Assembly: GCA_021325455.1 (NCBI GenBank)
Contig: JAJPHD010000010.1
Coordinates: forward strand, 124,001 to 188,000
Source: Actinomycetota bacterium
GTDB lineage: Bacteria > Actinomycetota > Acidimicrobiia > Acidimicrobiales > JAJPHD01
Direction: 5' to 3'
DNA length: 64,000 nucleotides
The notes under the pieces were generated by a model. That model was given only the letters and a program-made list of their open reading frames with translations, did no database searches and was not told the DNA's origin. This document shows, in pieces, positions 3,449 to 24,593 of the stretch. The position numbers and the translations under genes are program-made. Each line of letters starts with the position of its first letter. Positions within the stretch are counted from its first letter, which is position 1.

Positions 3449-4891
3449 CTACCGCTCAGCCGCCTGGCCCGCCAGCGCGCCCGAGCGGACCAGGGCCTTC
3501 AACGGCTCCAGGTCGTCGGGGGGTGGCGCACCCTCCCCGGTGAACGCCACCACCTCCCGCACCATCCGATGGACGGCAGCGGTGCCCCGGCCGAGCGCCG
3601 GCGGGAGGCGCAGGTCCAGGGCCTGGGAAGCGATCACCGCCTCGACGGCAGCCAGGCCCTCAGCCAGGTCGACCATCTCGGCCAGCCGGCGGGCTGCCAG
3701 GGGGGCCATGGTCACCCGGTCCTCGATCCCCTGGGCGATGCTCGTGCTGGTCACCTCGAAGGAGACGGGCGGGGCCAGCAGCCGAGCCTCGGCTGCCAGG
3801 GCCACGGCCGCCACCCCCAGCTCAGACAGGGCATCCTCGGCCACCGGATGAGCCACTGACAGGCCCTGAGGTAGTCCCGACTGAGGCGCCTGGAGGAGCT
3901 TGACGGCCCGCTCGGCCCCCGCCGTCAGGGCGGGAGCCAGGGCCAGGCGCACCAGGTCCAGGGCCGCCGCCAGTGGCAGGACATCAAAGTTTCCTGTCGG
4001 GACGGCTCGCCGGAGACCAAGGTCCACGATGGGGTTGCCTTGGGAGGAACGCAGCTCCACCTCCACCTGCTGGACGGCGTAGCCCAAGGCGTCCCGGGCG
4101 GCTCCATGGACCTGGGGCACGCAACGAAACGTGAGGGGGTCCTGGAGGTTGCGGGCTGCCCCGTCCCTCCACAGGTGGCTGCCCTCGAGCAGGTCCCTCA
4201 GGCGCCCGACGGTGGTGATGAGGCCCGGGTAGGGCCGCGACCGGGCCACCTCGGGCCCGAGGATGCTCAGGTTGGCGCCAAAGGCCTCCATTTCCAGGGC
4301 CGCGAGCCCGTCGGCCGTGTCCAGCCAGCGTCTGGCATCCACCAGGGCCAGGGCAGCCAGGGCGGTCGAGAAGGAGTTGTTGTCCACCAGGGCCAGCGCC
4401 TCCCCGGCAGCCAGCGAGAAGCCGGTCACAAGCCCATAGGCCAGGTCGGCGAGGGGAGCCAGGTCGCCTTGGCCCACCGAGCCGAGCATGCGCATGGGGG
4501 GCAGGGGGCCGGCGTTGAGGGCCTGCGCCAGGGTGATGGCCAGCTCGGGCCTGGCTCCCGCCCACCCCCCCGCCAGCTGGTTGACCAGCACGAGCAGGGT
4601 GGCCCGGGACACCTCGACAGGAGCCGGCGGGCCCTGGCCCACCCTGTGGCTGGCCAGCAGCAACCGGTTGAACTGGCCCTGGTCGGTGGTTACCGGAGAC
4701 TCCTTCTTGGCGTTCACCCCCCGGTTGAAGCCGTACACGGGGAGGTCCTTGCGGAGCGCCTCCTCAACCACCTCCCGCGTGGCCCGCATCCGCTCCAGGG
4801 CTTGGGGGGCGACGACCACCGCCTCCCCGTGGCGGGAGACCGCCACCAGCTGCTCCAGGGTGAGGTCTTGCCCGGTGAGGATGACGGTCAC
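3449..4891 (-). CDS. Aromatic-amino-acid-lyase (HAL/PAL) family protein lacking the MIO triad
   Basis: A 480-residue protein spanning the whole histidine/phenylalanine ammonia-lyase fold. Family landmarks include YGFNRG (Tyr53), the substrate-pocket segment RCVPQVHGA and the C-terminal SIAQGIEDRVTM. The stretch that normally reads G-S-V-G-A-S-G-D, whose Ala-Ser-Gly cyclises to the electrophilic MIO cofactor, reads GSVGQGD here (residues 137-143): one residue shorter, with Gln in place of Ala-Ser. A second catalytic Tyr (QDPYS in the family) is Leu253. Ordinary ammonia-lyase chemistry is therefore unlikely. The GTG start overlaps the stop of the upstream CDO-rhodanese gene (GTGA), which fixes the start and implies an operon. 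Codons around the altered site read cleanly, with no frameshift. Confidence 0.88.
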   Translation of the reverse strand: MTVILTGQDLTLEQLVAVSRHGEAVVVAPQALERMRATREVVEEALRKDLPVYGFNRGVNAKKESPVTTDQGQFNRLLLASHRVGQGPPAPVEVSRATLLVLVNQLAGGWAGARPELAITLAQALNAGPLPPMRMLGSVGQGDLAPLADLAYGLVTGFSLAAGEALALVDNNSFSTALAALALVDARRWLDTADGLAALEMEAFGANLSILGPEVARSRPYPGLITTVGRLRDLLEGSHLWRDGAARNLQDPLTFRCVPQVHGAARDALGYAVQQVEVELRSSQGNPIVDLGLRRAVPTGNFDVLPLAAALDLVRLALAPALTAGAERAVKLLQAPQSGLPQGLSVAHPVAEDALSELGVAAVALAAEARLLAPPVSFEVTSTSIAQGIEDRVTMAPLAARRLAEMVDLAEGLAAVEAVIASQALDLRLPPALGRGTAAVHRMVREVVAFTGEGAPPPDDLEPLKALVRSGALAGQAAER

Positions 4892-5916
4892 GAGGGACCT
4901 TCTCGCCCGAACGGGGCCAGGCCGCAGGGCAGGGTTCCGGCCTCCGCCTCCCCGAACCGGCGGACGGGGAGTCCGGCGGCCTTCCAGGCCAGGAAGCCAC
5001 CCTCGAGGTCGGTGGCCCTCACCACGCCCACCCGCCTCAGGGTCGTCGCCGCCAGGCTGGAGGCGTAGCCCTCGGTGCAGACCAGGATGATCTCCCGGTC
5101 GTAGCTGGCCACGCCCTCCAGGCGCGCCTCCGAGCGAGGGTCGAGCCTCCACTCCAGGACGTTGCGGGGGATGACCAGCGCCCCCGGGATCTCACCCTGC
5201 TGGCGGCGCTCCTCCATGGGGCGGATGTCGACCAGGACGGCCCCGCCCCGCACGGCTTGGGCCGCCTCCAGCGGCTTACGCCGGCGGAGGTGCCGGCGGG
5301 CCTCGGCCAGGAGCCCGTCGATGCCCTGGGGCCAGGCCATCCCGTTGGGGGCGATCCGGCCCGGCTGGGCCATCATGGGCTCGGGACGGTCCACGGGCAG
5401 GGTCTCCACCGGTGTCCGGGTCCCGTCGGTCCCTATCCGGTACACGGTCATGCGTGACAGGGGTGGCGAGTAGGCATGGATGCTGGTGGCCAGGGCCGGG
5501 CTCTGGTTGCCCACGATGTGCACATAGCGCCGTCCAAATGCCGATCCCGTCCCCGGGCCCAGCTGCCTCAGGTGCAGGGGCTGGCCGGTGCGGGGGCTGT
5601 AACCCTCGGTGAGGACCCCGTCTGCCACCCAAAACGCCCCGGACGAGCCCCCGTGGTCGTGAACGGTCGTATCCTGGCCCTCGGTCCAGCCGATGAGCCA
5701 GATGTCGACCCGCCGGTCGCGGTGGAGGCGCCGGTACCAGCGCTCGACCGGGTCGTGCTGCACCATGGGCCTCCAGACCCATTCCAGGCCTGCCAGCCCG
5801 GCCACCAACCGGGACAGGTCGCGGGCCGAAAGGCGGTCAGCCCCTCTGGCCAACCCGGACACGACGGCGCTGACGGCGTCGACGCAGGAGCCGCCCCCTT
5901 CGTGGATCGCGCTCAC
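4888..5916 (-). CDS. Cysteine-dioxygenase-like cupin fused to a rhodanese domain
   Basis: A 342-residue fusion. Residues about 45-170 match thiol (cysteine or 3-mercaptopropionate) dioxygenases: VHDHGGSSGAF provides the first two iron-ligand histidines (His86, His88) and SIHAYSPPL the third (His147). Residues about 215-325 are a rhodanese domain with the loop CTEGYASS (Cys280 as sulfur-carrying residue). The first domain should oxidise a thiol to a sulfinate. The rhodanese half suggests persulfide or sulfane-sulfur handling. It is the first gene of a two-gene unit with the MIO-less lyase homologue. GTG start. The 286 bases upstream (5917-6202) hold no convincing gene. Confidence 0.87.
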   Translation of the reverse strand: MSAIHEGGGSCVDAVSAVVSGLARGADRLSARDLSRLVAGLAGLEWVWRPMVQHDPVERWYRRLHRDRRVDIWLIGWTEGQDTTVHDHGGSSGAFWVADGVLTEGYSPRTGQPLHLRQLGPGTGSAFGRRYVHIVGNQSPALATSIHAYSPPLSRMTVYRIGTDGTRTPVETLPVDRPEPMMAQPGRIAPNGMAWPQGIDGLLAEARRHLRRRKPLEAAQAVRGGAVLVDIRPMEERRQQGEIPGALVIPRNVLEWRLDPRSEARLEGVASYDREIILVCTEGYASSLAATTLRRVGVVRATDLEGGFLAWKAAGLPVRRFGEAEAGTLPCGLAPFGREGPS

Positions 5917-6202: not shown

Positions 6203-7000
6203 TCAGGTCGTGCTGGCGGCCGGCGTCCTGGCCCGGGGCCGCTTGACCGCACCCGAGCGTCGGCGACGGACCCGGCCCGCCGGCCGCACCCGGTCCGCCT
6301 CATCGCTGCCCCTTCCCTCCCCCCGCTCCTCGTAGGCAGCGAGGACCAGCTCCGCCACCAGCCCCACGTGACCTGTCATGGCCGCTCCGGCGCCCTCAGC
6401 ATCACCTCTGGTGATGGCCTCGGCCACCTTCACGTGCGACAAGGCACAGGCCACGGCGTCGGCCTGGCCCGTGGCGCCGCTCTCCCGCAGGGCGCTCAAC
6501 AGCACGAGGGAGCGCTCGATGAGCTCGACCAGGCGCGGGTTCCCGGTGGCCCGGGCCAGGGCCAGGTGGAAGGCCTCGTTGAGGCGGCCAAAGGCCTCAA
6601 TGTCCCCAGCCCTAGCCGCTCTGAGGGACTCCTTGGCCAGGCGCCCTATCTCCCGGCGGGCAGCCTGCGGCGCCCGGCCGGCCACGGCCCGGGCTGCCAC
6701 CGATTCCAGGCCCTCCCGCACCTCGTAGGCATCCCTGATGGCCTGCCAGGAGGCGCGCACGACCCGGCCCCCCCGGGGCGGGTCGGGCTCGATGAGGCCA
6801 ACGTCGCGCAGTTGGAGCAACGCCTCCCTCACCGGGGTCTTGCTCACGTTGAGCTGGCGGGCCAGGCCCGCCTCCGTCAGGCGGGACCCCGGGGGCAGCT
6901 CCTGGCTCACGATGGCGAGCCGAATGGCCTCGTAGACCCGCTGGGTGAGCGTGTCGGGCCGGTCCCCAGGAGCCAGCAAGGGCCGCAAGGCACCCGTCAT
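6203..7000 (-). CDS. GntR-family transcriptional regulator with FCD domain
   Basis: A 265-residue FadR-subfamily repressor. Residues about 17-85 form the winged helix (TLTQRVYEAIRLAIVSQELPPG, then LNVSKTPVREALLQLRDVGL). Residues about 95-225 form the all-helical FCD ligand/metal-binding domain with EVREGLESVAAR and repeated His-containing helices. The C-terminal 30 residues are an Arg-rich tail. It is transcribed divergently from the ABC importer, the usual arrangement for a local substrate-responsive repressor. A FadR-type half-palindrome lies between the two (7161-7170). Confidence 0.92.
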   Translation of the reverse strand: MTGALRPLLAPGDRPDTLTQRVYEAIRLAIVSQELPPGSRLTEAGLARQLNVSKTPVREALLQLRDVGLIEPDPPRGGRVVRASWQAIRDAYEVREGLESVAARAVAGRAPQAARREIGRLAKESLRAARAGDIEAFGRLNEAFHLALARATGNPRLVELIERSLVLLSALRESGATGQADAVACALSHVKVAEAITRGDAEGAGAAMTGHVGLVAELVLAAYEERGEGRGSDEADRVRPAGRVRRRRSGAVKRPRARTPAASTT

Positions 7001-7353
7001 GGCCCAGTTCGAGGGGGGCTGCCAACCGTCATTCCGTCACCTCCCAGCCGTAACCGGTCGAGCCGGCATGCTAGGGCGGCGTGGGGACGGCTGGCAAAGC
7101 TCGACCCCTTGAACGGTCTCGACTACCATCGGGCGCTCCTCGGCGACTAGCAATGACCCGTGGTCCGACCCGTGGCAGACCCCTCCCCTCCGCCTCCTGT
7201 CGCCTCCCCCCAGGCCGCCCACGCCACCGTCCGCGCCGGCGCTGGGCCCGATCGCCCGCCGCTTCCCACCGGTGACGGGGTGGTACCCTCGGAGGCGGGC
7301 AGGCAACCTGGCCCCGCTCCCCTGCCTCCTCACCGTGGCGGGAGTGGCCGTTG
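7001..7353. promoter_or_regulatory. Divergent intergenic region between gntR and the ABC importer
   Basis: These 353 bases separate two divergent genes and contain no ORF with a credible family match. They should hold both promoters and the regulator's binding site. The only recognisable element is the TGGTCCGACC core at 7161-7170. Pyrimidine-rich tracts fill 7181-7210 and 7311-7335. No transporter substrate-binding protein is encoded here. Confidence 0.6.
7161..7170. promoter_or_regulatory. Candidate FadR/GntR-type operator core TGGTCCGACC
   Basis: TGGTCCGACC is an imperfect inverted repeat (GGT-CCG-ACC) identical to the core of the E. coli FadR operator consensus as I recall it. It lies 161 bases upstream of the GntR/FCD regulator gene and about 184 bases upstream of the permease gene. 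The regulator belongs to the FadR subfamily, so autoregulation plus control of the importer is reasonable. A 10-base match alone is weak evidence. Confidence 0.4.
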
Positions 7354-8322
7354 ATGGGAGGGCGCCCGTTGGCACGCTACCTCTTGAAGCGGGTGGCCCT
7401 GGCGATCCTGACGCTCATCCTGTTGAGCATCATGATCTTCCTCGCCGGCCAGGTGCTGCCGGGCAACCCCGGACGGGCCGTACTGGGCCCCTTCGCCTCC
7501 CGCAGCGCCGTGCAGGCCCTGGATCACCAGCTGGGGGTGGACCGGCCTCTGCCCGTGCAGTACTGGAGCTGGGCCACGGGCCTCCTCCGGGGCAACATGG
7601 GCATCTCGTACCAGTACCGGGCCCCTGTCTCCAGCTTCCTCTACCCCGCCCTCCTCCACTCCCTCAAGCTGGCCGCCGTGGCCTTCGTCCTGGTCGTGCC
7701 CCTCGGGGTGATCGGGGGAGTGCTGGCGGCGCTGCGCCGGGGAGGGGCAGCGGACCGGGCCATCAGCGTGACGGGCCTCTCCCTTTCCACCGTGCCCGAG
7801 TTCGTGTCGGGGATAGTGCTCATAGTCCTCTTCGCCATAGAGCTGAAGGTCCTGCCCGTCACGGCCAACCCACCGTCGGGCTCGGGCCCCCTGACCCAGA
7901 TCCGTTACCTCATCCTGCCCGCCATTCCCCTGGTGCTCATCCTCTTCGGGTACATCGCCCGCATGGCGCGAGCCGGCACCATCGAGGCTCTGGACTCCGA
8001 CTATGTGCGCACCGCCACCCTCAAGGGGCTGCCGCGCTCGCTGGTCATCCGCAGGCACGTGCTACGCAATTCCCTCCTGCCCACCATCACCGTGATCGCC
8101 ACCCAGACCGGCTATCTGATCGGGGGGCTGGTGGTGATCGAGGACCTGTTCAACTACCCGGGGATCGGCCGCTTGATATTCACCGCCGCCACGGACAAGG
8201 ACTTCCCCATGCTGGAGGCCGGGGTGCTGGTGATAGGGGTGGTGTACCTGGTGGCCACCCTTCTCGCCGACATCCTCTACACGGTCCTCAACCCCCGGGT
8301 GCGCCTGGGAGGGTCAGAGTGA
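7354..8322 (+). CDS. Dipeptide/oligopeptide-type ABC transporter permease (DppB-like)
   Basis: First permease of a peptide/nickel-class ABC importer, 322 residues with six predicted membrane helices. The N-terminal motif RYLLKRVALAILTL and LPGNPGR are typical of DppB/OppB. The ATPase-coupling loop is DSDYVRTATLKGLPRSLVIRRHVLRNSLLP, and NYPGIGRLI lies near the end. The ATG at 7354 is chosen; an adjacent TTG at 7351 is an alternative. It overlaps the next permease (TGATG). No solute-binding protein lies in the window, so the substrate cannot be assigned. Confidence 0.92.
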   Translation: MGGRPLARYLLKRVALAILTLILLSIMIFLAGQVLPGNPGRAVLGPFASRSAVQALDHQLGVDRPLPVQYWSWATGLLRGNMGISYQYRAPVSSFLYPALLHSLKLAAVAFVLVVPLGVIGGVLAALRRGGAADRAISVTGLSLSTVPEFVSGIVLIVLFAIELKVLPVTANPPSGSGPLTQIRYLILPAIPLVLILFGYIARMARAGTIEALDSDYVRTATLKGLPRSLVIRRHVLRNSLLPTITVIATQTGYLIGGLVVIEDLFNYPGIGRLIFTAATDKDFPMLEAGVLVIGVVYLVATLLADILYTVLNPRVRLGGSE

Positions 8323-9293
8323 TGCCTCCCGACCACCGCCCCGACCTGCTGGCCCCTCCGGCCGGGCGCGCCTCCCTCGGGGAGGCAGCCACCCTGCACG
8401 GTCCCGGGGCCATACCCCCCCTGGGGACGGAGGCAGGAGCGGGACCCATCGACTATTCGCCTCGCCGCATCCGCCGGGAGCGGTTAGGTGAGCTTCTCTC
8501 GACCAAGCCCTTCGTCGTGGGAGGGATCATTTTGGTGGGCTGGATCGTCTGCGCCGTTTTCGCCGGCCAGCTGGCTCCCTATGACCCTCTGGCCCAGAGC
8601 CTCACTGCCACCAACGCCCCCCCCTCGGCCACCCACTGGCTCGGCACCGACTCCTTGGGTCGCGACGTCCTGTCGCGGGTCATAGCCGGGTCCAGGGACA
8701 TCCTGGTCATATCCCCCCTGGCCACCATGCTCGGCACCGTGGCCGGCACCGCCATCGGGCTGGTGCAGGGCTACTTCGGGGGGCTGGTGGACAACGTCGT
8801 CGGGCGAGTGGTGGAAGCCGTTCTGGCCCTGCCGGTGATCATCGTGGCCTTCCTGTTCGTGGTCGCCGCCGGACCCTCCGAGCTCACCCTGGTCCTGGTC
8901 ATCGGGTTCGCCTTCGCCTTGCTCATCGCCCGCACCGTCCGCACGGCCGTGCTGCAGGAGCGGGACCTCGACTACATCGCCGCCGCCCGCCTCCGGGGGG
9001 AGAGCGCCCTGCACATAATGTTCGCCGAGATCCTCCCCAATGTGGGGGGCCCGATCCTGGTCGAGTTCACGGTGCGCCTGGGGTACGCCATATTCACCGT
9101 GGCCACGCTCTCCTTCCTGGGGTTCGGCATCAGGCCCCCTACGCCTGACTGGGGGGCGGACATCGCCGCCAACGCCGGCTACCTCTCCGCCGGGTACTGG
9201 TGGGAGACGCTGTTCCCGGCCCTCGCCATAGCAAGCCTGGTGATAGCCATCAACCTGGTTGCCGACTCCATCGAGGCGGTCGTCATCCAATGA
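8322..9293 (+). CDS. Dipeptide/oligopeptide-type ABC transporter permease (DppC-like)
   Basis: Second permease subunit, 323 residues. An unusually long N-terminal hydrophilic segment of about 65 residues precedes the first membrane helix (VVGGIILVGWIVCAVFAG). Conserved DppC features are HWLGTDSLGRDVLSRVI and the ATPase-coupling loop YIAAARLRGESALHIMFAEI. The C-terminal TLSFLGFGIRPPTPDWG is diagnostic for the family. The ATG overlaps the upstream stop, and the gene ends inside the ATPase start (ATGA). All three importer genes are therefore probably translated as one coupled unit. Confidence 0.93.
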   Translation: MPPDHRPDLLAPPAGRASLGEAATLHGPGAIPPLGTEAGAGPIDYSPRRIRRERLGELLSTKPFVVGGIILVGWIVCAVFAGQLAPYDPLAQSLTATNAPPSATHWLGTDSLGRDVLSRVIAGSRDILVISPLATMLGTVAGTAIGLVQGYFGGLVDNVVGRVVEAVLALPVIIVAFLFVVAAGPSELTLVLVIGFAFALLIARTVRTAVLQERDLDYIAAARLRGESALHIMFAEILPNVGGPILVEFTVRLGYAIFTVATLSFLGFGIRPPTPDWGADIAANAGYLSAGYWWETLFPALAIASLVIAINLVADSIEAVVIQ

Positions 9294-11377
9294 GCGGGGC
9301 CGCCCCCGCCCCTGGGGCCGAGGCCCCGGCCCTCGAGGTCAGCCACCTCGACATCAGCTACAAGGTGAGGGGGGCCGACCGCCTGGCCGTCCGCGACGTC
9401 TCCTTCACCATCGGCAGGAGGGACTCCTTCGGCCTGGTGGGCGAATCGGGCTGCGGGAAGTCCACCACCGCCCTGGCCATACCGCGCTATCTGGCCCGCA
9501 ACGGGCGGGTCTCGGCCGGGACCATCCGGCTCGACGGCGAGGACGTGTCCCGGCTGGGCCCTGAGGCCCTGCGGCGCCTGCGGGCCCGCAAGGTGGCCAT
9601 GGTCTACCAGGAGCCGGGCCGGGCCCTGAACCCTTCCATCAAGGTGGGCAGGCAGGTTGCCGAGGTCTTCGAGCTGGCCGGGGTCCCCAGGCGGGAGGCC
9701 ATGGAGCGCTCCGGGGAGGCCCTGGGCCGGGTGCAGATCCCAGACCCCCGGCGGGTGATGCGCTCGTACCCTCACCAGCTGTCCGGCGGGATGCTCCAGA
9801 GGGTGGTCATCGCCATGGCCCTCGCCTCCCAGCCTTCCCTGCTCGTCCTGGACGAGCCCACCACCGCCCTCGACGCCACCGTCGAGGCGGAGGTGCTGGA
9901 CCTGATCGCCTCGCTGCGCCAGGAGCTCCACACCGCCATCTTGTTCATCAGCCACAACCTGGCCGTGATCGCCCGCATGTGCGACCAGGTGGGCGTGATG
10001 TATGCCGGCGAGATAGTGGAGCAGGGCCCGGCCGGGGAGCTGTTCGGCCAGCCCCGTCATCCCTACACGGTCGGGCTCCTGCGCTGCGTGCCGGCCCGCA
10101 GGCACCGCAAGGGCGTGTCCCGCCTCGACACCATCCCGGGGTTCCTGCCCGCACCGGGCGAGGTGGCGGCCGGTTGCATCTTCGCGCCCCGCTGCCGCCT
10201 GGCCGACCAGCGCTGCACAGTGGAGTCCCCCCCCATGTACCAGGTGAGCGAGACCCGAGGGTCTCGCTGCCACTACCACCAGCGGGCCCCCGACCTGCCC
10301 GAGGCCGACGCCGCAACGGTGAGCGCGGGGCAGGAGCCGGACGGCCCCTGGACGGGCTCCACCACTCCCCTCATCGCCATGCGGGGCGTCTCCAAGACCT
10401 TCGCCGTGCGCAACGAGAAGGTCCGGGCCCTGAGCGACATAGACCTCAGCCTGTACCCGGGGGAGACCCTGGGGCTGGTGGGCGAGTCCGGCAGCGGCAA
10501 GACCACCCTGGCCAAGGTGCTGGTCGGCCTGGTCGCCCCTGACGGGGGATCGGCCCTGGAGCTCGAGGGCCGATCCCTGGCGCCCACCGCCCTCCGGCGG
10601 GCACAGGAGCAGCGACGGGCCATGCAGATCGTGTTCCAGAACCCCGACTCGGCCCTCAACCGGCGCCACAGCGTGCGCCACATCATCGGCCGTGCCCTCA
10701 CCAAGCTGGCCGGCCTGTCCGGCCGGGCCCGCCAGGACCGGTTGCTCGAGATCGTGCGCTCGGTCCGCATGGAGGAGCGCCACCTACCGCTTCGCCCCGC
10801 CCAGCTCTCCGGCGGGCTCAAGCAGCGGGTGGCCATCGCCCGCGCCTTCGCCGGCTCACCGAGGGTCCTGGTGTGCGACGAGCCCACCTCGGCGCTCGAT
10901 GTCTCGGTCCAGGCCGCGATACTCAACCTCCTCGCCGACCTGCAGGGCCGCGAGGGCGTCACCTACCTGTTCATCTCCCACGACCTCGGCGTGGTCCGCT
11001 ACCTGTCCGACAGGATCGCCGTGCTCTACCTCGGGAGGCTGATGGAGCACGGGCCGGCCGAGACCGTGTTCGCCGGCCCCCACCACCCCTACACCGAGGC
11101 CCTCCTCTCCGCTGTGCCCAGCCTGGACGGCCAGGCAGGGGAGCGCATACGGCTCGGCGGCGAGATCCCGAGCCCGGCCAACCCGCCCTCGGGCTGTGTG
11201 TTCCACACCCGCTGCCCGAGGAGGCTGGCCAGCGGGCTGTGCGAGTCCACCGAGCCCCCGCTCACCGAGGTGGAGCCCGGCCACGCCGTTCGCTGCCACA
11301 TCCCCCTCCCGGAGCTGCGCCGCCTCCAGGGCAAGGACGGGAGAGCGGCTGAGCTGCAGGGCGCCGAGGGCAGGTGA
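9290..11377 (+). CDS. Fused DppD-DppF-type ABC transporter ATPase (two nucleotide-binding domains)
   Basis: A 695-residue protein carrying both ATPases of the importer in one chain. Domain 1 has Walker [10 protein letters not shown], signature LSGGMLQRV and Walker [13 protein letters not shown]. Domain 2 has [18 protein letters not shown] and [12 protein letters not shown]. Each is followed by an oligopeptide-transporter C-terminal extension with clustered cysteines ([14 protein letters not shown] and [16 protein letters not shown]). That spacing resembles the segment proposed to bind an iron-sulfur cluster in some DppD/DppF proteins. The start ATG overlaps the permease stop. Confidence 0.93.
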
Positions 11378-11450: not shown

Positions 11451-12578
11451 CTACCCTTCTCCCCACACCTCCCCGGCCACCTCCACCACCAGGGCCAGCT
11501 TGGCCAGCTGCTCGTCATAGGTGAGGCTGTTGCCCTCCATGGTCGAGGAAAAGCCGCACTGGGGCGACAGGCAGAGCTGCTCCAAGGGGACGAAGCGGCT
11601 GGCCTCCTCGATGCGCCGCTTGAGATGGTCCTTGTCCTCCAGCCGGCCCTGCTTCGTGGTGACCAGGCCCAGCACCACCCGCTTGCCGGGAGGCACGAAG
11701 CGCAGCGGCTCGAAACCCCCTGACCTGTCGTCGTCGTACTCGAGGAAGAAGCCGTCCACCTGGAGCTCTCCGAAGAGCGCCTCGGCCACGAAGTCGTAGC
11801 CGCCCTCGGCCACCCAGGCGGATCGGAAGTTCCCGCGGCACATGTGGGTCGTGACCCGCATGCCGGGCGGCCGGCCCGCCAGCGCAGCATTGATCTGGGC
11901 GATGTAGCGCAGGTGCTGGCGCTCGGGGTCACCACCCTTGGCGGCCAGCTCGGCCCGCTGGGCCGGGTCGTTCAGGTAGGCCAGGCTGGTGTCGTCGAGC
12001 TGCAGGTAGGTGCAGCCCAGCTCGGCCAGGGCGGCCACCTCGGCCGCGTAGGCAGCGGAGAGGTCCTCCCAGAACTGGTCCAGGTCGGGGTACACGGAGG
12101 GGTCGATGGCGGCCCTGCCCCCCCGGTAGTGGACCATGCTGGGGGACGGGATGGTGAGCTTGGGGGTGGACGAGGTCACGGTGGCCCTGAGGAAGGCGAA
12201 GTCCTCGGCGAAGATGGGCTTGTCCAGGTGCACCCGGTCGTGCACCCGGAGGGACGACGGCGTGAACTCCAGGTCACCGGACTGGCGGTGGAAGCGCACG
12301 ACGAGGGACTCCTCGGCCCGGCTGATGCCTCCCAGCTGGTAGATGAAGTCCATATGCCACGAGGCCCGGCGGAACTCCCCGTCGGTCGCCGAGCGCAGGC
12401 CCACGCCTTCCTGCATGGCCACCGCCTCCCGGATGGCGTCGTCCTCGACGGCCCGCAGCTCGTCGGCGCCCAGGCGCCCTGAGGCCGCCGCCTCCCGGGC
12501 CCGCAACAACCGCGCCGGGCGCAGCAGGCTGCCCACGTGGTCCGCCCTGAAGGGCGGGTCGTCCACCACCAGTGCCAT
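11451..12578 (-). CDS. MetE-like (cobalamin-independent methionine synthase family) protein, copy 2
   Basis: A 375-residue protein equivalent to the C-terminal catalytic barrel of MetE; the duplicated N-terminal domain is absent. The zinc-ligand pattern is complete: THMC (His245, Cys247), FLEYDDDRSG (Glu280) and SPQCGF (Cys341). It should activate a thiol or similar acceptor for methyl transfer. Being short and embedded in an aromatic-degradation operon, it is more likely a dedicated methyltransferase or demethylase than the housekeeping methionine synthase. ATG at 12578 is preceded by GGAAAGGCGGTGAG. It is the last gene of the operon. Confidence 0.85.
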   Translation of the reverse strand: MALVVDDPPFRADHVGSLLRPARLLRAREAAASGRLGADELRAVEDDAIREAVAMQEGVGLRSATDGEFRRASWHMDFIYQLGGISRAEESLVVRFHRQSGDLEFTPSSLRVHDRVHLDKPIFAEDFAFLRATVTSSTPKLTIPSPSMVHYRGGRAAIDPSVYPDLDQFWEDLSAAYAAEVAALAELGCTYLQLDDTSLAYLNDPAQRAELAAKGGDPERQHLRYIAQINAALAGRPPGMRVTTHMCRGNFRSAWVAEGGYDFVAEALFGELQVDGFFLEYDDDRSGGFEPLRFVPPGKRVVLGLVTTKQGRLEDKDHLKRRIEEASRFVPLEQLCLSPQCGFSSTMEGNSLTYDEQLAKLALVVEVAGEVWGEG

Positions 12579-12585
12579 CGCTAGC

Positions 12586-13899
12586 TCACCGCCTTTCCCC
12601 CCAGGCCTCGAGGGCCCGGTCGATCCAGGTGCCGGTCGCTCCCAGGTAGGAGCGGGGATCGAGCCACTGGGCCCTCTCGTCCTCACCCACCAGGCCCTCG
12701 GCACCCAACTCGTCCCCCAGGTCCCGGCCCGACGCTATCGCCCGTGCCACCGCCGCCGCGGCCTCCTCCCGGCCGAGACGGGGCGCCAGGGCCAAGCTCA
12801 CCCGCTCTGCCATCACCGCACCCCGGCTGCGCTCCAGGTTGCTCGCCATGACAGGGGCATGGACCTCGAGCCCGGCCACCGTCTCCCGGGTCCGGGCCAC
12901 GGCCCCGCCCGCCAGGGCCAACAGCTCCGAGAGGCTCCCCCACTCCGCCTGCCAGGCGCCCACGGCCCTCTCGTGCTCGGCCACCACGGCCTGGAGGAGG
13001 ACCGGCACCAGGGCCTGTGCCTGCCGGCAAGCCGCCCCCACCACCGCCGCCCCCACCGGGTTGCGCTTGTGGGGCATGGTGGAGGACCCTCCCCGTCCCG
13101 GCGCGGCCGGCTCGGTGGCCTCCCCCACCTCGGCCTGCATCAGCAGGGCCACGTCCCAGGCCACCTTGCTCGCCGTGCCGGCAGCCGTCCCGAGGGCACA
13201 AGCCAGGCGCGCCACCCGCTGGCGGGCTGTGTGCCAGGGCAGGACCGCCTCAGCCAGCCCGAGCTTGTGGGCGAAGAGGGCCGCCACCGCCGGCCCCTGG
13301 TCTCCCAGTGATGCCAGGGTGCCTGCCGCCCCTCCCAGCTGGGCGGCCAGTTCGCCTGCGGCGTGCACGAGGTCCCGCCGGGCGTCCAGGGTCGCCACCA
13401 GCCAGCCCGCGGCCTTGAGGCCGAAGGTGATCGGGACCGCCGGCTGCAGGAGGGTTCGGCCCACCATCAGCGTGTGGCGGTGGGCGTGGGCCAGGTTGGC
13501 GCACTCCCGGGCCAGCCCGGCCAGGTCAGCTTCTATGAGGGCCAGCGCCCGCTTGGAGACCAGCATGGCCGCCGTATCGAGGATGTCCTGGCTGGTGGCA
13601 CCCCAGTGCACCCAGGGCCGGGCTCCGTCGGGCACGGCTCGGCGCAGGGCGGCGGCCAAGGGTATGACCGGATTGCCTCCCGCCCGGGCGGCCCGCCCGA
13701 GCTGGCCCGCATCCAGGCTCACCTCACGGCAGGCGGCACCGATGGCCCGGGCCGCCTCGGGGGGCACCACCCCCACCTCCGCCTCGGCATCGGCCAGGGC
13801 CGCCTCGGCCTCGAGCAATGCCTGGAGCCAGGCCCTGTCCCCGGTGGCATCCAAGAGGGCGTCGGTAACGAGGATGGGGCCGAAGAGTTCACCAGGCAA
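12586..13899 (-). CDS. pcaB: 3-carboxy-cis,cis-muconate cycloisomerase
   Basis: Converts beta-carboxy-cis,cis-muconate, the product of protocatechuate 3,4-dioxygenase, to gamma-carboxymuconolactone. The 437-residue protein belongs to the fumarase/aspartase superfamily. It has VHWGATSQDILDTA near residue 95 and the signature GGSSTMPHKRNPVGA near residue 270. Those match bacterial PcaB better than adenylosuccinate lyase, and the position directly after pcaHG supports this. The TTG start overlaps the pcaG stop by 11 bases. Downstream steps (pcaC, D, I/J, F) are not in the window. Confidence 0.9.
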   Translation of the reverse strand: MPGELFGPILVTDALLDATGDRAWLQALLEAEAALADAEAEVGVVPPEAARAIGAACREVSLDAGQLGRAARAGGNPVIPLAAALRRAVPDGARPWVHWGATSQDILDTAAMLVSKRALALIEADLAGLARECANLAHAHRHTLMVGRTLLQPAVPITFGLKAAGWLVATLDARRDLVHAAGELAAQLGGAAGTLASLGDQGPAVAALFAHKLGLAEAVLPWHTARQRVARLACALGTAAGTASKVAWDVALLMQAEVGEATEPAAPGRGGSSTMPHKRNPVGAAVVGAACRQAQALVPVLLQAVVAEHERAVGAWQAEWGSLSELLALAGGAVARTRETVAGLEVHAPVMASNLERSRGAVMAERVSLALAPRLGREEAAAAVARAIASGRDLGDELGAEGLVGEDERAQWLDPRSYLGATGTWIDRALEAWGERR

Positions 13900-14416
13900 A
13901 GAACACCGTCTCCCCGGGGCCCTGGAGGCACATGTCGAAGCGCAGCCCCAGCCCGTCGGGCACCCCCACCAGGGTCTCGGCCCGGGAGGGGTCGGGCAGG
14001 GAGGTGAGGACAGGGTCCGAGGAGTTGGCGGGGCCCTCGTCAGGGAAGTAGACCCTGGTGACCAGGCGCTGCAGGAGCCCCCGGGCGAAGAGCGAGATGT
14101 CTATGTGGGGAGCCTGCATCCCGTCCACTCTCCCCGGCTTGGCCGTGGCGAAGGAGTAGCCGCCATCGGGACCCGTGAGGCAGCGACCGAAGCCGCGCCA
14201 ACCGCTCGGGGAGCGGGGCGGGAACTTGCCGGCGGGGTCGGCCTGCCAGATCTCCACCACCGCATCGGTCACCGGGTCACCCTCCCCGTCGCGGACCACC
14301 CCGTGCAGCCTGAGGAGGCCGGGATGGCCCTCGGCCACCAGGTCCCGCCCTGCCAGCCACGCCAGGCCGAACCGGAAGAAGGGGCCCACCGTCTGGGACG
14401 GCGTGGGCCCTCTCAC
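13889..14416 (-). CDS. pcaG: Protocatechuate 3,4-dioxygenase alpha subunit
   Basis: Non-iron-binding alpha subunit of the intradiol dioxygenase that opens protocatechuate between C3 and C4. The 175-residue protein begins TPSQTVGPFFRFGL, a hallmark of the alpha chain. It has the beta-sandwich motifs VVEIWQADPAGKF, GRCLTGPDGGYSF and APHIDISLFARGLL, where the iron tyrosines and second histidine of the beta chain are replaced as expected. The GTG start overlaps the pcaH stop (GTGA), consistent with equimolar synthesis. Confidence 0.93.
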   Translation of the reverse strand: MRGPTPSQTVGPFFRFGLAWLAGRDLVAEGHPGLLRLHGVVRDGEGDPVTDAVVEIWQADPAGKFPPRSPSGWRGFGRCLTGPDGGYSFATAKPGRVDGMQAPHIDISLFARGLLQRLVTRVYFPDEGPANSSDPVLTSLPDPSRAETLVGVPDGLGLRFDMCLQGPGETVFFAW

Positions 14417-15093
14417 CGGAGCCCCTCCACGGGTGTGGCCAGGTGGCCACCGAGCACCACGTCGAAGCGGTAGCCGAGGGCCCACTCCTCCTCCGTGGTC
14501 TGCCAGTCGAAGCTGGACACCAGCCTCTCCCGGGCCTGCTCGTCCCGCACCGAGAGGTAGATGGGGTCATGGGCCAGCAACGGATCGCCGGGGAAGTACA
14601 TCTGGGTCACCAAACGCTCCGTGAAGGCTCGCCCGAAGACCGAGAAGTGGATGTGGGCCGGGCGCCAGGCGTTGGGGTGGTTCCTCCACGGGTAGGCGCC
14701 GGGTTTGATGGTGACGAACCGGTAGCTGCCGTCAGGGCCGGTGAGGCAGCGGCCGGCCCCGGTGAAGTTGGGGTCCAGGGGGGCGGGGTGCTGGTCCACC
14801 TCGTGGGCGTAGCGGCCGGCCGCGTTGGCCTGCCAGATCTCGACCAGCTGGCCGGCCACGGCCCTCCCGTCCCCGTCTAGGAGGCGGCCGGACACGTTGA
14901 TGCGCTGTCCCAGGGGTTCTCCCTCGTGGTGGCAGGTCAGGTCGGCGTCCCCGGGCTCCACCTCGTCCTCTCCGAACACCGGCCCGCTCGCCTCGGTAGG
15001 GCCGCCGGGCAGGGGCACCAGCGGTCTCCGGGGGGCCCGCAGGGCCGAGGAGCGGTATGCAGGCTCGTCGTAGGGAGGGTCCGGGGATGCCAT
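14413..15093 (-). CDS. pcaH: Protocatechuate 3,4-dioxygenase beta subunit
   Basis: Iron-carrying catalytic subunit of protocatechuate 3,4-dioxygenase. The 226-residue protein shows AYRSSALRAP and GPVFGEDEVEPGDADLT at the N-terminus, then VEIWQANAAGRYAH. The segments PGAYPW, WRPAHIHFSVFG and LVTQMYFPGDPL carry the tyrosine and histidine ligands of the ferric iron. The ATG at 15093 fits the family length. An in-frame TTG at 15144 overlapping the upstream stop is the alternative. It is followed directly by pcaG. Confidence 0.93.
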   Translation of the reverse strand: MASPDPPYDEPAYRSSALRAPRRPLVPLPGGPTEASGPVFGEDEVEPGDADLTCHHEGEPLGQRINVSGRLLDGDGRAVAGQLVEIWQANAAGRYAHEVDQHPAPLDPNFTGAGRCLTGPDGSYRFVTIKPGAYPWRNHPNAWRPAHIHFSVFGRAFTERLVTQMYFPGDPLLAHDPIYLSVRDEQARERLVSSFDWQTTEEEWALGYRFDVVLGGHLATPVEGLR

Positions 15094-15140
15094 GCGATCG
15101 GGGGTGCGCCGGGCAGGGTAACCCCGCCCATCCGGGCAAG

Positions 15141-16190
15141 TCAACGGTCCGGGATGGCCTGCTGACGCTGGCGAAGCAACTTCGCCGCCTCCACCAGGGA
15201 CCGCATCTTGCCCAGGGCCGAGTGACGGGGGAGGTACTTCATGCCGCAGTCGGGGGCCAGGACGAGGTCCCGGGCCTCCCGGTGCTCCAGCGCCCGCTCC
15301 ACCCGGTCCACCACCACCTGAGGGTCCTCCACCGCCGGGTCGGAGAGGTCGAGGACCCCGAGGATGATCTGCTTGCCAGGCAACTGGCGCAGGACCGAAC
15401 AGTCCAGGCCGGACTGGGCCGTCTCGATGGATACCTGGTCAACGGGCACACCGGCCAGCTCGGCCAGGAAGGAGTAGGCGGGGGGGCGGCCATGGACGAT
15501 GGCGGCATAGCCGAAGCAGACATGCACCGCTGTCCGGCCCGGAACCCCCTCCAGCGCCTGCTGCAGGGCCTCCAGGCCGTGCTCCCGGGCCGCCTCGGGG
15601 CGGGCCTGCATGTAGGGCTCGTCCAGCTGGACGATGTCCATGCCGCAGGCGAACAGGTCCCGGACCTCGGCGTTGACCACCTCGGCGAAGGCCAGGGCCA
15701 GCGCACGGGCGTCGCCGTAGAAGTCGTCCTGGGCCTGCTGGGACATGGTGAAGGGCCCCGGAACGGTCATCTTGGCCAGGCGGTCGGTGCGCTGGCGCAG
15801 GAAGAGGGCGTCCCTCACCAGCACCGGGTGGCGCCGGCGGATGGGGCCCACGACCCTCGGGACCGGGTTGGGGCGTCCACTGCGGTCCATGGCGACGCCA
15901 GGGTTGTCTACGTCCACCCCTTCGAGAGCGGTGGCGAAGCGGTTGGAGTAGCTCTCCCGGCGGATCTCGCCGTCCGTGATGATGTCCAGCCCCGCCTCGA
16001 CCTGGGCGGCGATGGCCAGTTCGGTGGCATCGTCCTGGGCTTGCTCCAGCCACTCGGGCGCCACCCGCCACAGCTCCCTGGCCCGGGCCCGGGGCGGGAG
16101 CCGGGAGGCCAGCCTGGTCCTGTCGACGAGCCAGTCCGGCTGGGGCAGGCTGCCCACCAGGCTGGTTGGGAACAGGGGGAGGTCCGTCAC
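15141..16190 (-). CDS. MetE-like (cobalamin-independent methionine synthase family) protein, copy 1
   Basis: A 349-residue single-barrel MetE-type protein. It keeps the zinc site: VHVC (His223, Cys225), SIETAQSG (Glu256) and APDCGMKYL (Cys315), and the N-terminal LVGSLPQP loop. DIVQLDEPYM matches the family substrate strand. It is clearly diverged from copy 2 in the same operon, so the two are unlikely to be redundant. Candidate roles are transfer of a methyl group from a methoxylated aromatic or to a thiol acceptor; sequence alone cannot decide. GTG start overlaps the preceding MDR gene stop (GTGA). Confidence 0.85.
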   Translation of the reverse strand: MTDLPLFPTSLVGSLPQPDWLVDRTRLASRLPPRARARELWRVAPEWLEQAQDDATELAIAAQVEAGLDIITDGEIRRESYSNRFATALEGVDVDNPGVAMDRSGRPNPVPRVVGPIRRRHPVLVRDALFLRQRTDRLAKMTVPGPFTMSQQAQDDFYGDARALALAFAEVVNAEVRDLFACGMDIVQLDEPYMQARPEAAREHGLEALQQALEGVPGRTAVHVCFGYAAIVHGRPPAYSFLAELAGVPVDQVSIETAQSGLDCSVLRQLPGKQIILGVLDLSDPAVEDPQVVVDRVERALEHREARDLVLAPDCGMKYLPRHSALGKMRSLVEAAKLLRQRQQAIPDR

Positions 16191-17158
16191 GGCACCAGGA
16201 CCACCCTGCTGGTCGCCTTGCCCTCCTGTTGTCGGCGCCAGGCCTGCTCGACCTCCGCCAGCGGGGCGGTGTCAAAGGCCAGGCCGATGCGGCCGGCAGC
16301 GGCGTGGCCCAGCACGGTGCCGAGGGCGGCAGAGGTCTCGGCCGCCCCGAGGGATGCATTGGTGTAGCCGAGGATGGAGAGGCTGCGGCCGCGGATGGTG
16401 GCCGAGTCGAAGGTGGCTGTCTCCGCCGCTGCGCTCCCGAGCTGCACCAGGCGGCCCCCCGGCCCGAGGGCCCGCAGGGCGGCGCTGGCCGCCAGGCCGA
16501 AGATGGGGTCGATCACCACATCGACCGGCCCGCCGCAGGCGGCCTCGAACCGCCCGGCCAACTCGCCCACGTCCTCGCCGGTGGGGTCGACCGCGGCGTC
16601 GGCGCCCCTGGACATGACCGCCTCCCGTCCCTCGGGGGACCGGGCCGTCCCGGCCACGTAGCCGGCCCCCAGAATGCGCGCCGCCTGGAGGGCCACCTGC
16701 CCCACCGCGCCGCTGGCGCCCAGCACGAGGACGCGCTCACCAGGCTGGAGGCGGGCCCGGCCGGACAGGGCCTCCCAGGCAGCCACGGCCGAGAGCCCCA
16801 GGGCCGCTGCCGCCGCGCTGCCCACGGCTTCGGGGACCTCGACCAGGCCCTCGGGCGGGACCGCCACCAGCTCGGCCATGGCCCCGTTCTCGCCGGGCCG
16901 GATCCCCGCCCCGGTCTGGAACCACACCCTCCGGCCGAGGCCCGATCCCCCCCGGACCAGGCCCACGCCCTGCACGCCAGGCACGTAGGGCAAGGGCGGG
17001 GCCCCGAAGTAGGAGCTGCCGCTGGCGAGGAAGACGTCCAGGGGCGAGATGGGGGCGGCCTCCACTTCGACCAGCACCTGGCCCTCGGCCACCTCGGGGT
17101 CGGGAGCGTCGCTCCGGCGGGGCGGCTGGCCGTAGTGGGTGAGGAGGGCGGCCTTCAC
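16187..17158 (-). CDS. Zinc-independent MDR / quinone-oxidoreductase-type dehydrogenase
   Basis: A 323-residue medium-chain dehydrogenase/reductase. The N-terminal GroES-like domain (APISPLDVFLASG, then PYVPGVQGVGLV) lacks the catalytic zinc cysteine/histidine set. The Rossmann domain holds VLVLGASGAVGQVALQAARI near residue 150, as in NADPH quinone oxidoreductases. In an aromatic-catabolism operon it could reduce an enone or quinoid intermediate. GTG start; seven bases separate it from the LigA-like gene and four overlap the next gene. Confidence 0.86.
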   Translation of the reverse strand: MKAALLTHYGQPPRRSDAPDPEVAEGQVLVEVEAAPISPLDVFLASGSSYFGAPPLPYVPGVQGVGLVRGGSGLGRRVWFQTGAGIRPGENGAMAELVAVPPEGLVEVPEAVGSAAAAALGLSAVAAWEALSGRARLQPGERVLVLGASGAVGQVALQAARILGAGYVAGTARSPEGREAVMSRGADAAVDPTGEDVGELAGRFEAACGGPVDVVIDPIFGLAASAALRALGPGGRLVQLGSAAAETATFDSATIRGRSLSILGYTNASLGAAETSAALGTVLGHAAAGRIGLAFDTAPLAEVEQAWRRQQEGKATSRVVLVP

Positions 17159-17165
17159 CGGGGCA

Positions 17166-17531
17166 TCAGGTGGTGATGTCGGGCTGGGGCCTCCCCAGCC
17201 AGGGGGAGAGCCGGGAGGCGTACTCCCGCTGGAAGCCCAGGGGCTCGGGGTGGTCCCGCTCGAACATGGCGATGAACAGCGTGAGGGTGAGGAAGGGATG
17301 GGCCCCCAGCTCGTAGAGCTTGGGGTAGTCGTGGGCCCGCAGGGCGGCCCGCTCCTCCTCCTCGAAGGAGAGCCAGGTGGAGGACTCGCCGGCGTGGCAC
17401 CTGAGGAGCAGGTTGGCCTGGTTCCTCTCCCACCACTCCACCGTCCCGACAGGGTCGCAGCGGTACCTCTCGACCAGCTCAGGGTCCCGGTCGACCGTGT
17501 AGAGGAACTTGTCCACGAGGTACCGGCTCAC
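17166..17531 (-). CDS. Extradiol ring-cleavage dioxygenase alpha subunit (LigA-like)
   Basis: A 121-residue helical subunit related to LigA of protocatechuate 4,5-dioxygenase. The conserved run YELGAHPFLTLTLFIAMFERD forms the lid over the active site in the LigAB structure. The GTG start overlaps the LigB-like stop by GTGA. LigA proteins occur only with LigB-type catalytic subunits, so the pair defines a second ring-cleavage activity beside PcaHG. The exact substrate (protocatechuate, gallate, 3-O-methylgallate or other) is not resolvable. Confidence 0.85.
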   Translation of the reverse strand: MSRYLVDKFLYTVDRDPELVERYRCDPVGTVEWWERNQANLLLRCHAGESSTWLSFEEEERAALRAHDYPKLYELGAHPFLTLTLFIAMFERDHPEPLGFQREYASRLSPWLGRPQPDITT

Positions 17532-18388
17532 CGGGCCGCCTCGGGGTACCACGTGAAGTAGGCCTCCATGGTGTGGAACAGGTCGAGGGTGTCGACGTAG
17601 TCGGCCTTCACCCCGTCGCCGGCCACCCCCATCATGAGCAGGAAGTCCATGAAGCCGTGAGTGGCGTTGCCCGGGGCCCACAGGCTCTCCAGGGTCACCT
17701 CGGCCAAGGCCCCCTCCACGTCGGCGGTGGCTATCCACTGGACAGCCTTGGCGTCGAACTCGGGATCGGGACCATGGGGGCCGAACTGCCGGGGCCCGCC
17801 CAGCTCCAGCGAGAGGTGCCCGGTGCCGATGATGGCCACCCGCAGGTCGCTCTCCCAGGACTCCACGAGCCGGCGCAGGGTCCTGCCCAGCTCGACGAAG
17901 CGAGCGGGCTGAGGCAGGGGCGGGGCGAAGATGTTGGTGTACACCGGTACCACGGGCAGGTCGTTCTGAGGCCGCAGGGTGATGATGGGGCAGGTGACGC
18001 TGTGGTCAAGCCGCAGCTCGTTGGAGAAGGCCAGGTCGAACCCGGCGTCGAGGCCTCCCCGGAGGAGATGGCGGGAGAGGCCGAGGTGGCCGGTCAGGAG
18101 CATCCTCGGCAGGCCGAACTCGCGCTCTTCGTTGTACCAGTTGGCGTCGTAGAAGGGGGCGCTCCCGACAAGGAACTGGGGCATGCTGTCCAGCCACAGC
18201 TGGTGGAAGTGGTCCGAGCCGACCAGCACCAGGACGTCGGGCCGGGCCCGGGTCAGCGTCTGGCGGAAGGCCTCCACCTTGCCGACCCATTCCTGGGCGA
18301 ACGGAGGACGCTCGGGCGCAGGGGCCGTGCTGGCCCGGTAGTAGAAGGGGTGGTGGGTGGAGGCGATCACCGCCGCAATGGTGGCCAT
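17528..18388 (-). CDS. Class III extradiol dioxygenase catalytic subunit (LigB-like)
   Basis: A 286-residue Fe(II) dioxygenase subunit. Ligand and catalytic positions typical of LigB are present: STHHPFYY near residue 10, VGSDHFHQLWL near residue 58, and IIGTGHLSLELGGP near residue 190 with the catalytic His. APGNATHGFMDFLLMMG and YVDTLDLFHTMEAYFTWY close the protein as in gallate/protocatechuate 4,5-dioxygenases. It is followed by its LigA-like partner. ATG start, six bases after the citryl-CoA-lyase-like gene. Confidence 0.88.
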   Translation of the reverse strand: MATIAAVIASTHHPFYYRASTAPAPERPPFAQEWVGKVEAFRQTLTRARPDVLVLVGSDHFHQLWLDSMPQFLVGSAPFYDANWYNEEREFGLPRMLLTGHLGLSRHLLRGGLDAGFDLAFSNELRLDHSVTCPIITLRPQNDLPVVPVYTNIFAPPLPQPARFVELGRTLRRLVESWESDLRVAIIGTGHLSLELGGPRQFGPHGPDPEFDAKAVQWIATADVEGALAEVTLESLWAPGNATHGFMDFLLMMGVAGDGVKADYVDTLDLFHTMEAYFTWYPEAAR

Positions 18389-18394
18389 GGGCTC

Positions 18395-19186
18395 CTACTC
18401 GTCCCAGGGAACGTAGCGGGCAGCGCGGTCGATGTGCAGGTACATGTCCATGGCCACCGGGCGCCGCAGCTCCTCGGCCAGCTGGCCGAGAAGGCCGGCC
18501 GTGCGGGCCAGGAGGGCAAAGCCCCGCAGCATGGGGATGGGCAGGCCCAGGTCGGCCAGCGCCGCGCCGCACACCCCGGCCCCGTTCAGGGGCAGCTGAC
18601 GGCCGATAACCCGGGGGTGGACACGGCCCACGGCCTCGTAGAGGGCGAGGTGGGGGCCCTTGGTCCCTTCCTCCTCCGCCAGCCGGATGAGGACGGGAGT
18701 GCGGGGATCGACGTCCTTGTGCACGGGGTGCCCCAGGCCGGGGACGAGCCTCCCGGCGGCCCTGGCCCCGGTGAGCACCTCGAGGGCCATGGCGTCCCAT
18801 CCCCGCTCATCGGTGGGCAGCGGCCCTTGGTGGGAGGCGAGAGCCGAGGAGAGGAAGAGGCCGGTGTCCTCGGTGACCCCGAGGAAGCGGGACCCTCCAC
18901 CCAGCAGGCCCGCCGCCAGAGCCCCCTGCAAGGAGTCGGGGGCGCTCAGGTAGGTGAGCCGGCTGGCGATGGCGGTGGGCGTGAAGCCATGGTCGGCCAG
19001 GGCCACCAGCACCGCCTCGAACACCCTGAGCTGCCCCGGGCTGGGCCGGTGCCCTGCCACCAGCCAGAAGGCGAGCTCCCCGAAGCCGACCCTTCCCATG
19101 AGGTCCCGGGCCAGGTCCTGGCCCAGCAGGCGGATACTCGCCGGGTCGGAGGTGCCAAGCGACGTGGGGTACCCGTCGGCGCTCAC
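18395..19186 (-). CDS. Citryl-CoA lyase-like (citrate synthase family, single-domain) protein
   Basis: A 263-residue member of the citrate synthase fold, much shorter than citrate synthase (about 430) and close to the CitE-independent citryl-CoA lyase domain. The motifs PGLGHPVHKDVDPRTP (catalytic His) and AMDMYLHIDRAARYVPWDE match such lyases. It should cleave a citryl-CoA-like thioester to oxaloacetate plus an acyl-CoA. Between a CaiB-type CoA transferase and LigAB it could act on the CoA ester of a citrate-like ring-cleavage product. GTG start overlaps the CaiB stop. Confidence 0.8.
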   Translation of the reverse strand: MSADGYPTSLGTSDPASIRLLGQDLARDLMGRVGFGELAFWLVAGHRPSPGQLRVFEAVLVALADHGFTPTAIASRLTYLSAPDSLQGALAAGLLGGGSRFLGVTEDTGLFLSSALASHQGPLPTDERGWDAMALEVLTGARAAGRLVPGLGHPVHKDVDPRTPVLIRLAEEEGTKGPHLALYEAVGRVHPRVIGRQLPLNGAGVCGAALADLGLPIPMLRGFALLARTAGLLGQLAEELRRPVAMDMYLHIDRAARYVPWDE

Positions 19187-21865: not shown

Positions 21866-21953
21866 CCCTTGCCCTCCTTGGTCCCGGGGCGAGCCTAACG
21901 CCGGGTGGCGTGGCACACCGGGTCCGGTCCCCCCCTCCCGGCCGGCCTGGCCC

Positions 21954-24593
<2,640 letters not shown>

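Follow-up and report, generated by a model that had tools for sequence, protein, structure and literature searches.

The stretch analysed here (the window) comprises 64,000 nucleotides of the forward strand of contig JAJPHD010000010.1 (assembly GCA_021325455.1, positions 124,001 to 188,000), from an uncultured actinobacterium of the order Acidimicrobiales. It contains two overlapping genes, encoding a lyase of the aromatic ammonia-lyase fold that cannot form the 4-methylideneimidazol-5-one (MIO) cofactor and a thiol dioxygenase fused to a rhodanese, which together probably constitute a catabolic module for ergothioneine and trimethylhistidine. Judged from sequences and predicted structures, this module would remove both sulfur and trimethylamine, with sulfur oxidation occurring first; the full scheme, including a rhodanese step, is put forward more tentatively. 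Ergothioneine is 2-thio-trimethylhistidine betaine, and hercynine is trimethylhistidine. The features that carry this proposal are as follows.

3449..4891, minus strand: MIO-less aromatic-lyase-fold protein, proposed trimethylamine-lyase (480 amino acids, GTG start; PF00221)
4463..4483, minus strand: lyase loop GSVGQGD (residues 137-143), replacing GSVGASGD of histidine ammonia-lyase (HAL), from an alignment of 62 lyases
4888..5916, minus strand: thiol dioxygenase-rhodanese fusion (342 amino acids, GTG start), CDO_I and Rhodanese in one frame
5377..5916, minus strand: cupin thiol dioxygenase domain, with His86, His88, His133 and Ser145-His147-Tyr149
4942..5319, minus strand: rhodanese domain (PF00581), with a catalytic-type Cys280 in CTEGYASS
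4888..4891, minus strand: GTGA overlap of fusion stop and lyase start, read from the sequence

The lyase matches PF00221 (Lyase_aromatic) at 346.7 bits in a Pfam profile search; its start is placed at the GTG at 4891, the frame that stays open upstream to 5152 being an over-extension. HAL models score 281-292 bits against cut-offs of 524-539, and the NCBIfam hutH model 280.8 bits against a curated cut-off of 539.15. The initial annotation, made from the sequence alone, had noted that GSVGQGD at residues 137-143 lacks Ala-Ser-Gly and that the conserved catalytic tyrosine is replaced by Leu253, with Tyr53, RCVPQVHG and a C-terminal Glu-Asp retained, and each of these observations holds. Sixty-two lyases were aligned, of which 16 are MIO-bearing and 46 lack a triad of the Ala-Ser-Gly type. 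The loop is one residue shorter than that of HAL and without the MIO-forming triad, a shortening that distinguishes the MIO-less rows from the MIO-bearing rows generally. Leu253 occupies the position of HAL Tyr280, a column that holds tyrosine in all 16 MIO-bearing rows and leucine in 42 of the 46 others. Tyr53, RCVPQVHG (after Leu253) and Glu390-Asp391 near the C-terminus are kept, and an AlphaFold model of the protein shows a well-formed predicted fold (predicted local distance difference test, pLDDT, 92).

Approximately 45 close and more distant lyase relatives were gathered by homology searches; a scan of genome contigs with a four-sequence alignment returned lyase relatives, whereas a single-sequence scan returned none. 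In the resulting tree the window lyase belongs to a MIO-less clade of 28 rows (support 100/100), and the Ala-Ser-Gly triad, looked for in orthologous positions, is absent from all 28 members. A branch with 100/99 support places the MIO-bearing HALs and a Pseudomonas protein on one side and the other MIO-less rows, including Treponema denticola ergothionase, on the other. The Pseudomonas protein (L108:10001-11482, Pseudomonas sp. NBRC 111124), whose loop reads GSVGYLTHMAH, lies within the MIO-bearing HAL clade and has apparently lost its triad independently. Another HAL-like paralogue type, whose loops include GAAGE and GSGE and which has QAPVS for QDPY, shares loci with MIO-less lyases at L057:19063, L154:10427 and L092:11850. 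MIO-less lyases also occur on a plasmid of Pseudorhodobacter turbinis, which lies outside the Actinomycetota (L033:11914-13479, GSMGQSD), where ABC permease-like genes follow; amid purine/allantoin-catabolism-like genes rather than hut genes (L037:7678-9144, GATGQGD); and, in a large-genome actinobacterium, with an amidohydrolase and a betaine ABC transporter and no dioxygenase nearby (L156:7625-10029, GSIGASDL).

Among proteins of solved structure, ergothionase is the closest to the window lyase. The T. denticola enzyme (6S7J) is the top phmmer match in the PDB at 173 bits, above all HALs, and leads a structural search with the lyase model (Z 45.0); tyrosine aminomutase is tied with it (Z 44.5), so that the fold alone does not decide. 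At the columns that separate the classes, the window lyase agrees with ergothionase at Val59, Lys63, Leu253 and Lys331, its Glu390 aligns with ergothionase Glu411, and Tyr53 is also kept, so that each residue distinguishing ergothionase from HAL (Lys63, Leu277 and Lys355) has its counterpart, as have Tyr53 and Glu411. A passage of PMC13405746, citing Maurer 2019, describes ergothionase as lacking MIO, and a MIO-less lyase is in itself not new. Both enzymes have the HAL fold without MIO (loop SSIGEGD in ergothionase, GSVGQGD here), leucine for HAL Tyr280 and corresponding lysines and glutamate (Lys63, Lys355/Lys331, Glu411/Glu390), but they share only about 28% identity and stand on different branches of the lyase tree. 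The window lyase is also coupled to what we propose is an oxidative sulfur-removing enzyme, and its genome encodes a true HutU rather than a thiourocanate hydratase. With HutH the window lyase has in common the fold, Tyr53, QD, RCxPQ and Glu-Asp, but it lacks both Ala-Ser-Gly and Tyr280 and scores far under the hutH cut-off, and a separate, ordinary HutH (585.8 bits) is present in the window genome.

The partner gene matches CDO_I (PF05995) at 53.9 bits (cut-off 23) and Rhodanese (PF00581) at 48.4 bits within a single open frame. At the junction, CCCTCGTGACCGTC, the start codon of the lyase (GTG) and the stop codon of the fusion (TGA) overlap, which makes the translational coupling asserted in the initial annotation plausible. 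The three iron histidines recognized there are present as His86, His88 and His133, which we take to be the iron ligands, with Ser145-His147-Tyr149 as the second-sphere triad, by homology with rat cysteine dioxygenase. Across 21 dioxygenase relatives the five histidine and tyrosine residues of the iron site and triad are invariant, and Ser145 is conserved in at least 90%. A model of the dioxygenase domain (pLDDT 91) finds as its seven best PDB matches the ergothioneine dioxygenase (ETDO) of Thermocatellispora tengchongensis (8QFL-8QFR, identified from the PDB entry titles; Z 20.2-21.9, 34% identity), and next the cysteine dioxygenase of Bacillus subtilis (Z 18.9, 24% identity); by both measures ETDO, not cysteine dioxygenase, is the nearer relative of the window domain. 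Two deposited ETDO variants alter His147 and Tyr149; the corresponding histidine and tyrosine are retained in the window protein. From ETDO, with which it shares the three-histidine and Ser-His-Tyr residues, the window domain, at 34% identity, differs in being linked, and indeed fused, to a rhodanese rather than linked to an amidohydrolase. This difference runs through the dioxygenase tree, in which a 100/99 split separates 12 rows followed by a rhodanese, including the window, from nine that adjoin an amidohydrolase, including ETDO.

The rhodanese loop CTEGYASS, which lacks the usual closing arginine, conforms to a CxEGY(T/A)SS pattern typical of rhodaneses that follow this dioxygenase group; the mixed alignment of dioxygenases and rhodaneses put the domains out of register and served solely for reading this loop. 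An oxygenase fused to a rhodanese is also found in the persulfide dioxygenase-rhodanese fusion BpPRF (5VE3), but there the match is confined to the rhodanese part: the window oxygenase is a cupin, and that of BpPRF has a metallo-beta-lactamase fold. Tandem relatives use different frames, and we therefore considered whether the fusion could be an assembly artefact; this we judge unlikely because an independent in-frame fusion, with 49% identity, occurs in a second genome (G473).

The pairing recurs in divergent genomes. A dioxygenase lies within 8 kb of the lyase in eight of 42 MIO-less loci and in none of 25 MIO loci. A dioxygenase and rhodanese accompany a MIO-less lyase in the window, L035, L154 and L182, the last two of which carry a different lyase clade. 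At L182, which lies in G473 and belongs to the same order as the window genome, the independent fusion is followed after 48 bp by another kind of MIO-less lyase, GGLGTADLTALAE, with approximately 32% identity to the window lyase, and downstream of this by zinc dehydrogenase, formaldehyde-activating enzyme, glutamate-synthase-like, amidotransferase, glutamine-synthetase-like and trimethylamine N-oxide permease-like genes. Nine further loci (L034, L036, L057, L059, L068, L073, L078, L079 and L155) combine a MIO-less lyase with an adjacent ETDO-type dioxygenase and PF04909 amidohydrolase. Taken together, the loss of the triad throughout the clade and the recurring adjacency amount to more than chance.

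Other neighbours bear on the probable substrate. HutU and HutF adjoin MIO-less lyases in several loci; an MttB-family gene (582.9 bits) directly follows the lyase sister to that of the window in L055; in actinobacteria and Chloroflexi, genes of the formaldehyde-activating enzyme (Fae) family lie close to MIO-less lyases (L055, L061, L074, L082, L092, L155 and L182); and homocysteine methyltransferases, OpuAC betaine transporters and methylamine-type genes occur near relatives' MIO-less lyases. In a neighbouring MIO-less clade, four operons (L088, L090, L092 and L110) encode thiourocanate hydratase-like proteins scoring 733-752 bits, above their hutU scores, together with thiohydantoin desulfurase-like proteins and, in L090, where these were scored, ErtD- and ErtE-like genes, which ties this lyase family to the utilisation of ergothioneine. 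These Ert-type operons, all from uncultured actinobacteria, also hold hydantoinase and M20 genes, and their scores fall under NCBIfam cut-offs. The neighbour families were chosen from the very MIO-less loci being compared, and the MIO loci used as controls belong to other phyla, so all such neighbour counts are descriptive and not independent tests. The earlier suggestion of a thiol pathway employing a lyase fold without MIO is supported and can be made specific: the nearest solved relatives of both partners act on ergothioneine, and relatives' neighbours point to ergothioneine or hercynine, trimethylamine and the hut pathway. Its sulfur amino acid version, with cysteine sulfinate as a ligand, fares otherwise, in that no neighbour gene supports it.

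Our proposal for the chemistry begins with the cupin domain which, on the strength of its structure and residues, would oxidise the sulfur of ergothioneine to a sulfinate with Fe(II) and O2. The oxidised sulfur would then be removed, either by the fused rhodanese domain or spontaneously, to give hercynine; this is the least certain step. Hercynine would be cleaved by the MIO-less lyase to urocanate and trimethylamine, with acid/base residues (candidates being Tyr53, Lys63, Lys331 and Glu390) completing the reaction. MIO would not be needed here, trimethylammonium being a good leaving group in its own right; HAL does need the MIO electrophile for amine loss, and this difference would explain why Ala-Ser-Gly and Tyr280 were lost jointly. 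Urocanate would enter the chromosomal HutU-HutI-HutF route, and relatives' neighbours suggest that the methyl groups of trimethylamine are probably salvaged by a methyltransferase or by one-carbon enzymes.

Gene content of the window genome, established by targeted searches, agrees with several of these steps. HutI (388 bits) is present, as is HutF, which with an M20 hydrolase lies beside HutU, and the latter scores 927 bits against 662 for the thiourocanate hydratase model. As a true HutU it requires that sulfur leave before hydration, although it does not decide the order in which sulfur and trimethylamine are lost. In the Ert route (thiourocanate hydratase, thiohydantoin desulfurase, ErtD and ErtE), which shares an operon with the neighbouring-clade lyase, sulfur is instead removed after hydration, at the thiohydantoin stage; targeted searches did not find its enzymes in the window genome, so sulfur would leave earlier there. 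The one candidate thiohydantoin desulfurase, the sole S-Me-THD protein of the genome, was rejected at 85-98 bits against cut-offs of 440-450; it adjoins a hydantoinase-like gene (L170:907-1998). EgtD was not detected by a targeted search of the same genome, and ergothioneine would therefore come from outside.

With regard to the desulfinating step, Nalivaiko, Vasseur and Seebeck (2024) are reported to have described, alongside ETDO, a metal-dependent sulfinate desulfinase whose product is trimethylhistidine, a role that would suit the PF04909 amidohydrolase. It is conceivable, if rather doubtful, that the rhodanese-type cysteine domain acts as an ergothioneine-sulfinate desulfinase in its place and hands hercynine to a MIO-less hercynine trimethylamine-lyase. 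The ETDO-linked amidohydrolase is detected in G175 and G111 and not in G205, and the two proteins, rhodanese and amidohydrolase, may be interchangeable; L034 (in G175), however, has a rhodanese as well.

Several observations weigh against an ergothioneine module. T. denticola ergothionase lies, like the window clade, on the MIO-less side of the 100/99 branch, but it is placed outside that clade and a long branch (2.01) away from it. The window dioxygenase falls in the rhodanese-linked clade, sister to the clade of characterised ETDO and not inside it, and is accordingly ETDO-like and not a strict orthologue; its relatives occur in other actinobacteria without a lyase. No dioxygenase lies within 6 kb in 34 of the 42 MIO-less loci, many of which are on short contigs. 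Finally, targeted searches of the window genome found neither a homologue of the ETDO-linked amidohydrolase nor an OpuAC binding protein; an OpuAC-type betaine importer being absent from these results, the adjacent Opp-type transporter is the candidate instead.

The most serious competitor, which we nonetheless consider unlikely, reverses the order: the lyase would be an ergothionase, converting ergothioneine to thiourocanate and trimethylamine, and the dioxygenase-rhodanese would take sulfur from thiourocanate. The closest solved lyase is indeed ergothionase, with Lys63 common to both, and the neighbouring clade sits in thiourocanate/thiohydantoin operons; yet, going by the entry titles, ergothioneine itself is the substrate of the characterised dioxygenase relative. 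The true HutU of the window genome implies that sulfur has gone before hydration, which does not settle the order. There is a smaller chance that the dioxygenase-rhodanese is a general actinobacterial cysteine or thiol dioxygenase unit lying beside the lyase by happenstance, since tandem pairs are widespread without a lyase, large-genome actinobacteria included. The GTGA overlap argues otherwise, as do the pairs found beside MIO-less lyases of two clades (L035, L154 and L182) and beside hut and/or betaine-transport genes (L035, L154, L157, L158 and L164). That the module acts on a different thio-betaine (S-methylergothioneine, ergothioneine sulfonate or some ovothiol-type compound, for example) is more improbable still: NCBIfam S-methyl thiourocanate models come close to these hydratases, and catabolism of ergothioneine sulfonate has been reported (Yan 2022, as cited in a passage of PMC13405746), but a sulfonate requires no dioxygenase, and both partners have their nearest solved relatives among enzymes acting on ergothioneine. 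Loss of the MIO triad and Tyr280 might imply that the lyase has degenerated into an inactive HAL paralogue, but this hardly accords with a well-formed predicted fold or with the conservation of Tyr53, Lys63, Lys331, Glu390 and the short loop across the divergent members of the clade.

Ergothionase and ergothioneine dioxygenase are already known, as is an Ert pathway. As far as these analyses show, three things are new: the coupling of a MIO-less lyase to a fused dioxygenase and rhodanese, the finding that this combination recurs with MIO-less lyases of two kinds, and a large clade of MIO-less proteins whose HAL scores stay below cut-off. HAL models match its members best, though far under their cut-offs, and these proteins have no capacity to form MIO. 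Were the clade to consist of trimethylamine-lyases, it would represent a widespread, probably mis-annotated actinobacterial family that connects ergothioneine, an antioxidant common in soil and diet, with trimethylamine and with the breakdown of histidine. The present view of ergothionase as rare, which relies on one BLAST search (PMC13405746), would then need revision. The domain fusion renders the role of actinobacterial dioxygenase-rhodanese pairs directly testable, and a rhodanese desulfinase, if true, would provide a compact aerobic pathway from ergothioneine to urocanate with new rhodanese chemistry.

Three neighbouring features of the window may belong with the two genes.

6203..7000, minus strand: GntR/FadR-type regulator directly upstream of the fusion, possibly a regulator here (PF07729 and PF00392)
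7351..11377, plus strand: Opp/Dpp-type ABC transporter, with permeases at 7351-8322 and 8319-9293 and fused ATPases at about 9287-11377 (Pfam)
11451..12704, minus strand: MetE-like (Meth_synt_2) methyltransferase (NF005085, 451 bits)

The transporter is likely to be the importer of the module, and the MetE-like gene is possibly part of it. A homologous Opp-type permease lies within 8 kb in ten of 42 MIO-less loci and for one of 25 MIO lyases, and MetE-like relatives occur near the lyase in L056, L057, L069, L070, L074 and L087, in several cases directly upstream. Given these relatives beside other MIO-less lyases, the functional cluster may reach to about 12.7 kb. Positions 12586-24593 of the window, on the minus strand, hold an aromatic-degradation-like run comprising a Lyase_1 protein, ring-cleavage dioxygenase-like open reading frames, a CoA-transferase and an aconitase-like gene.

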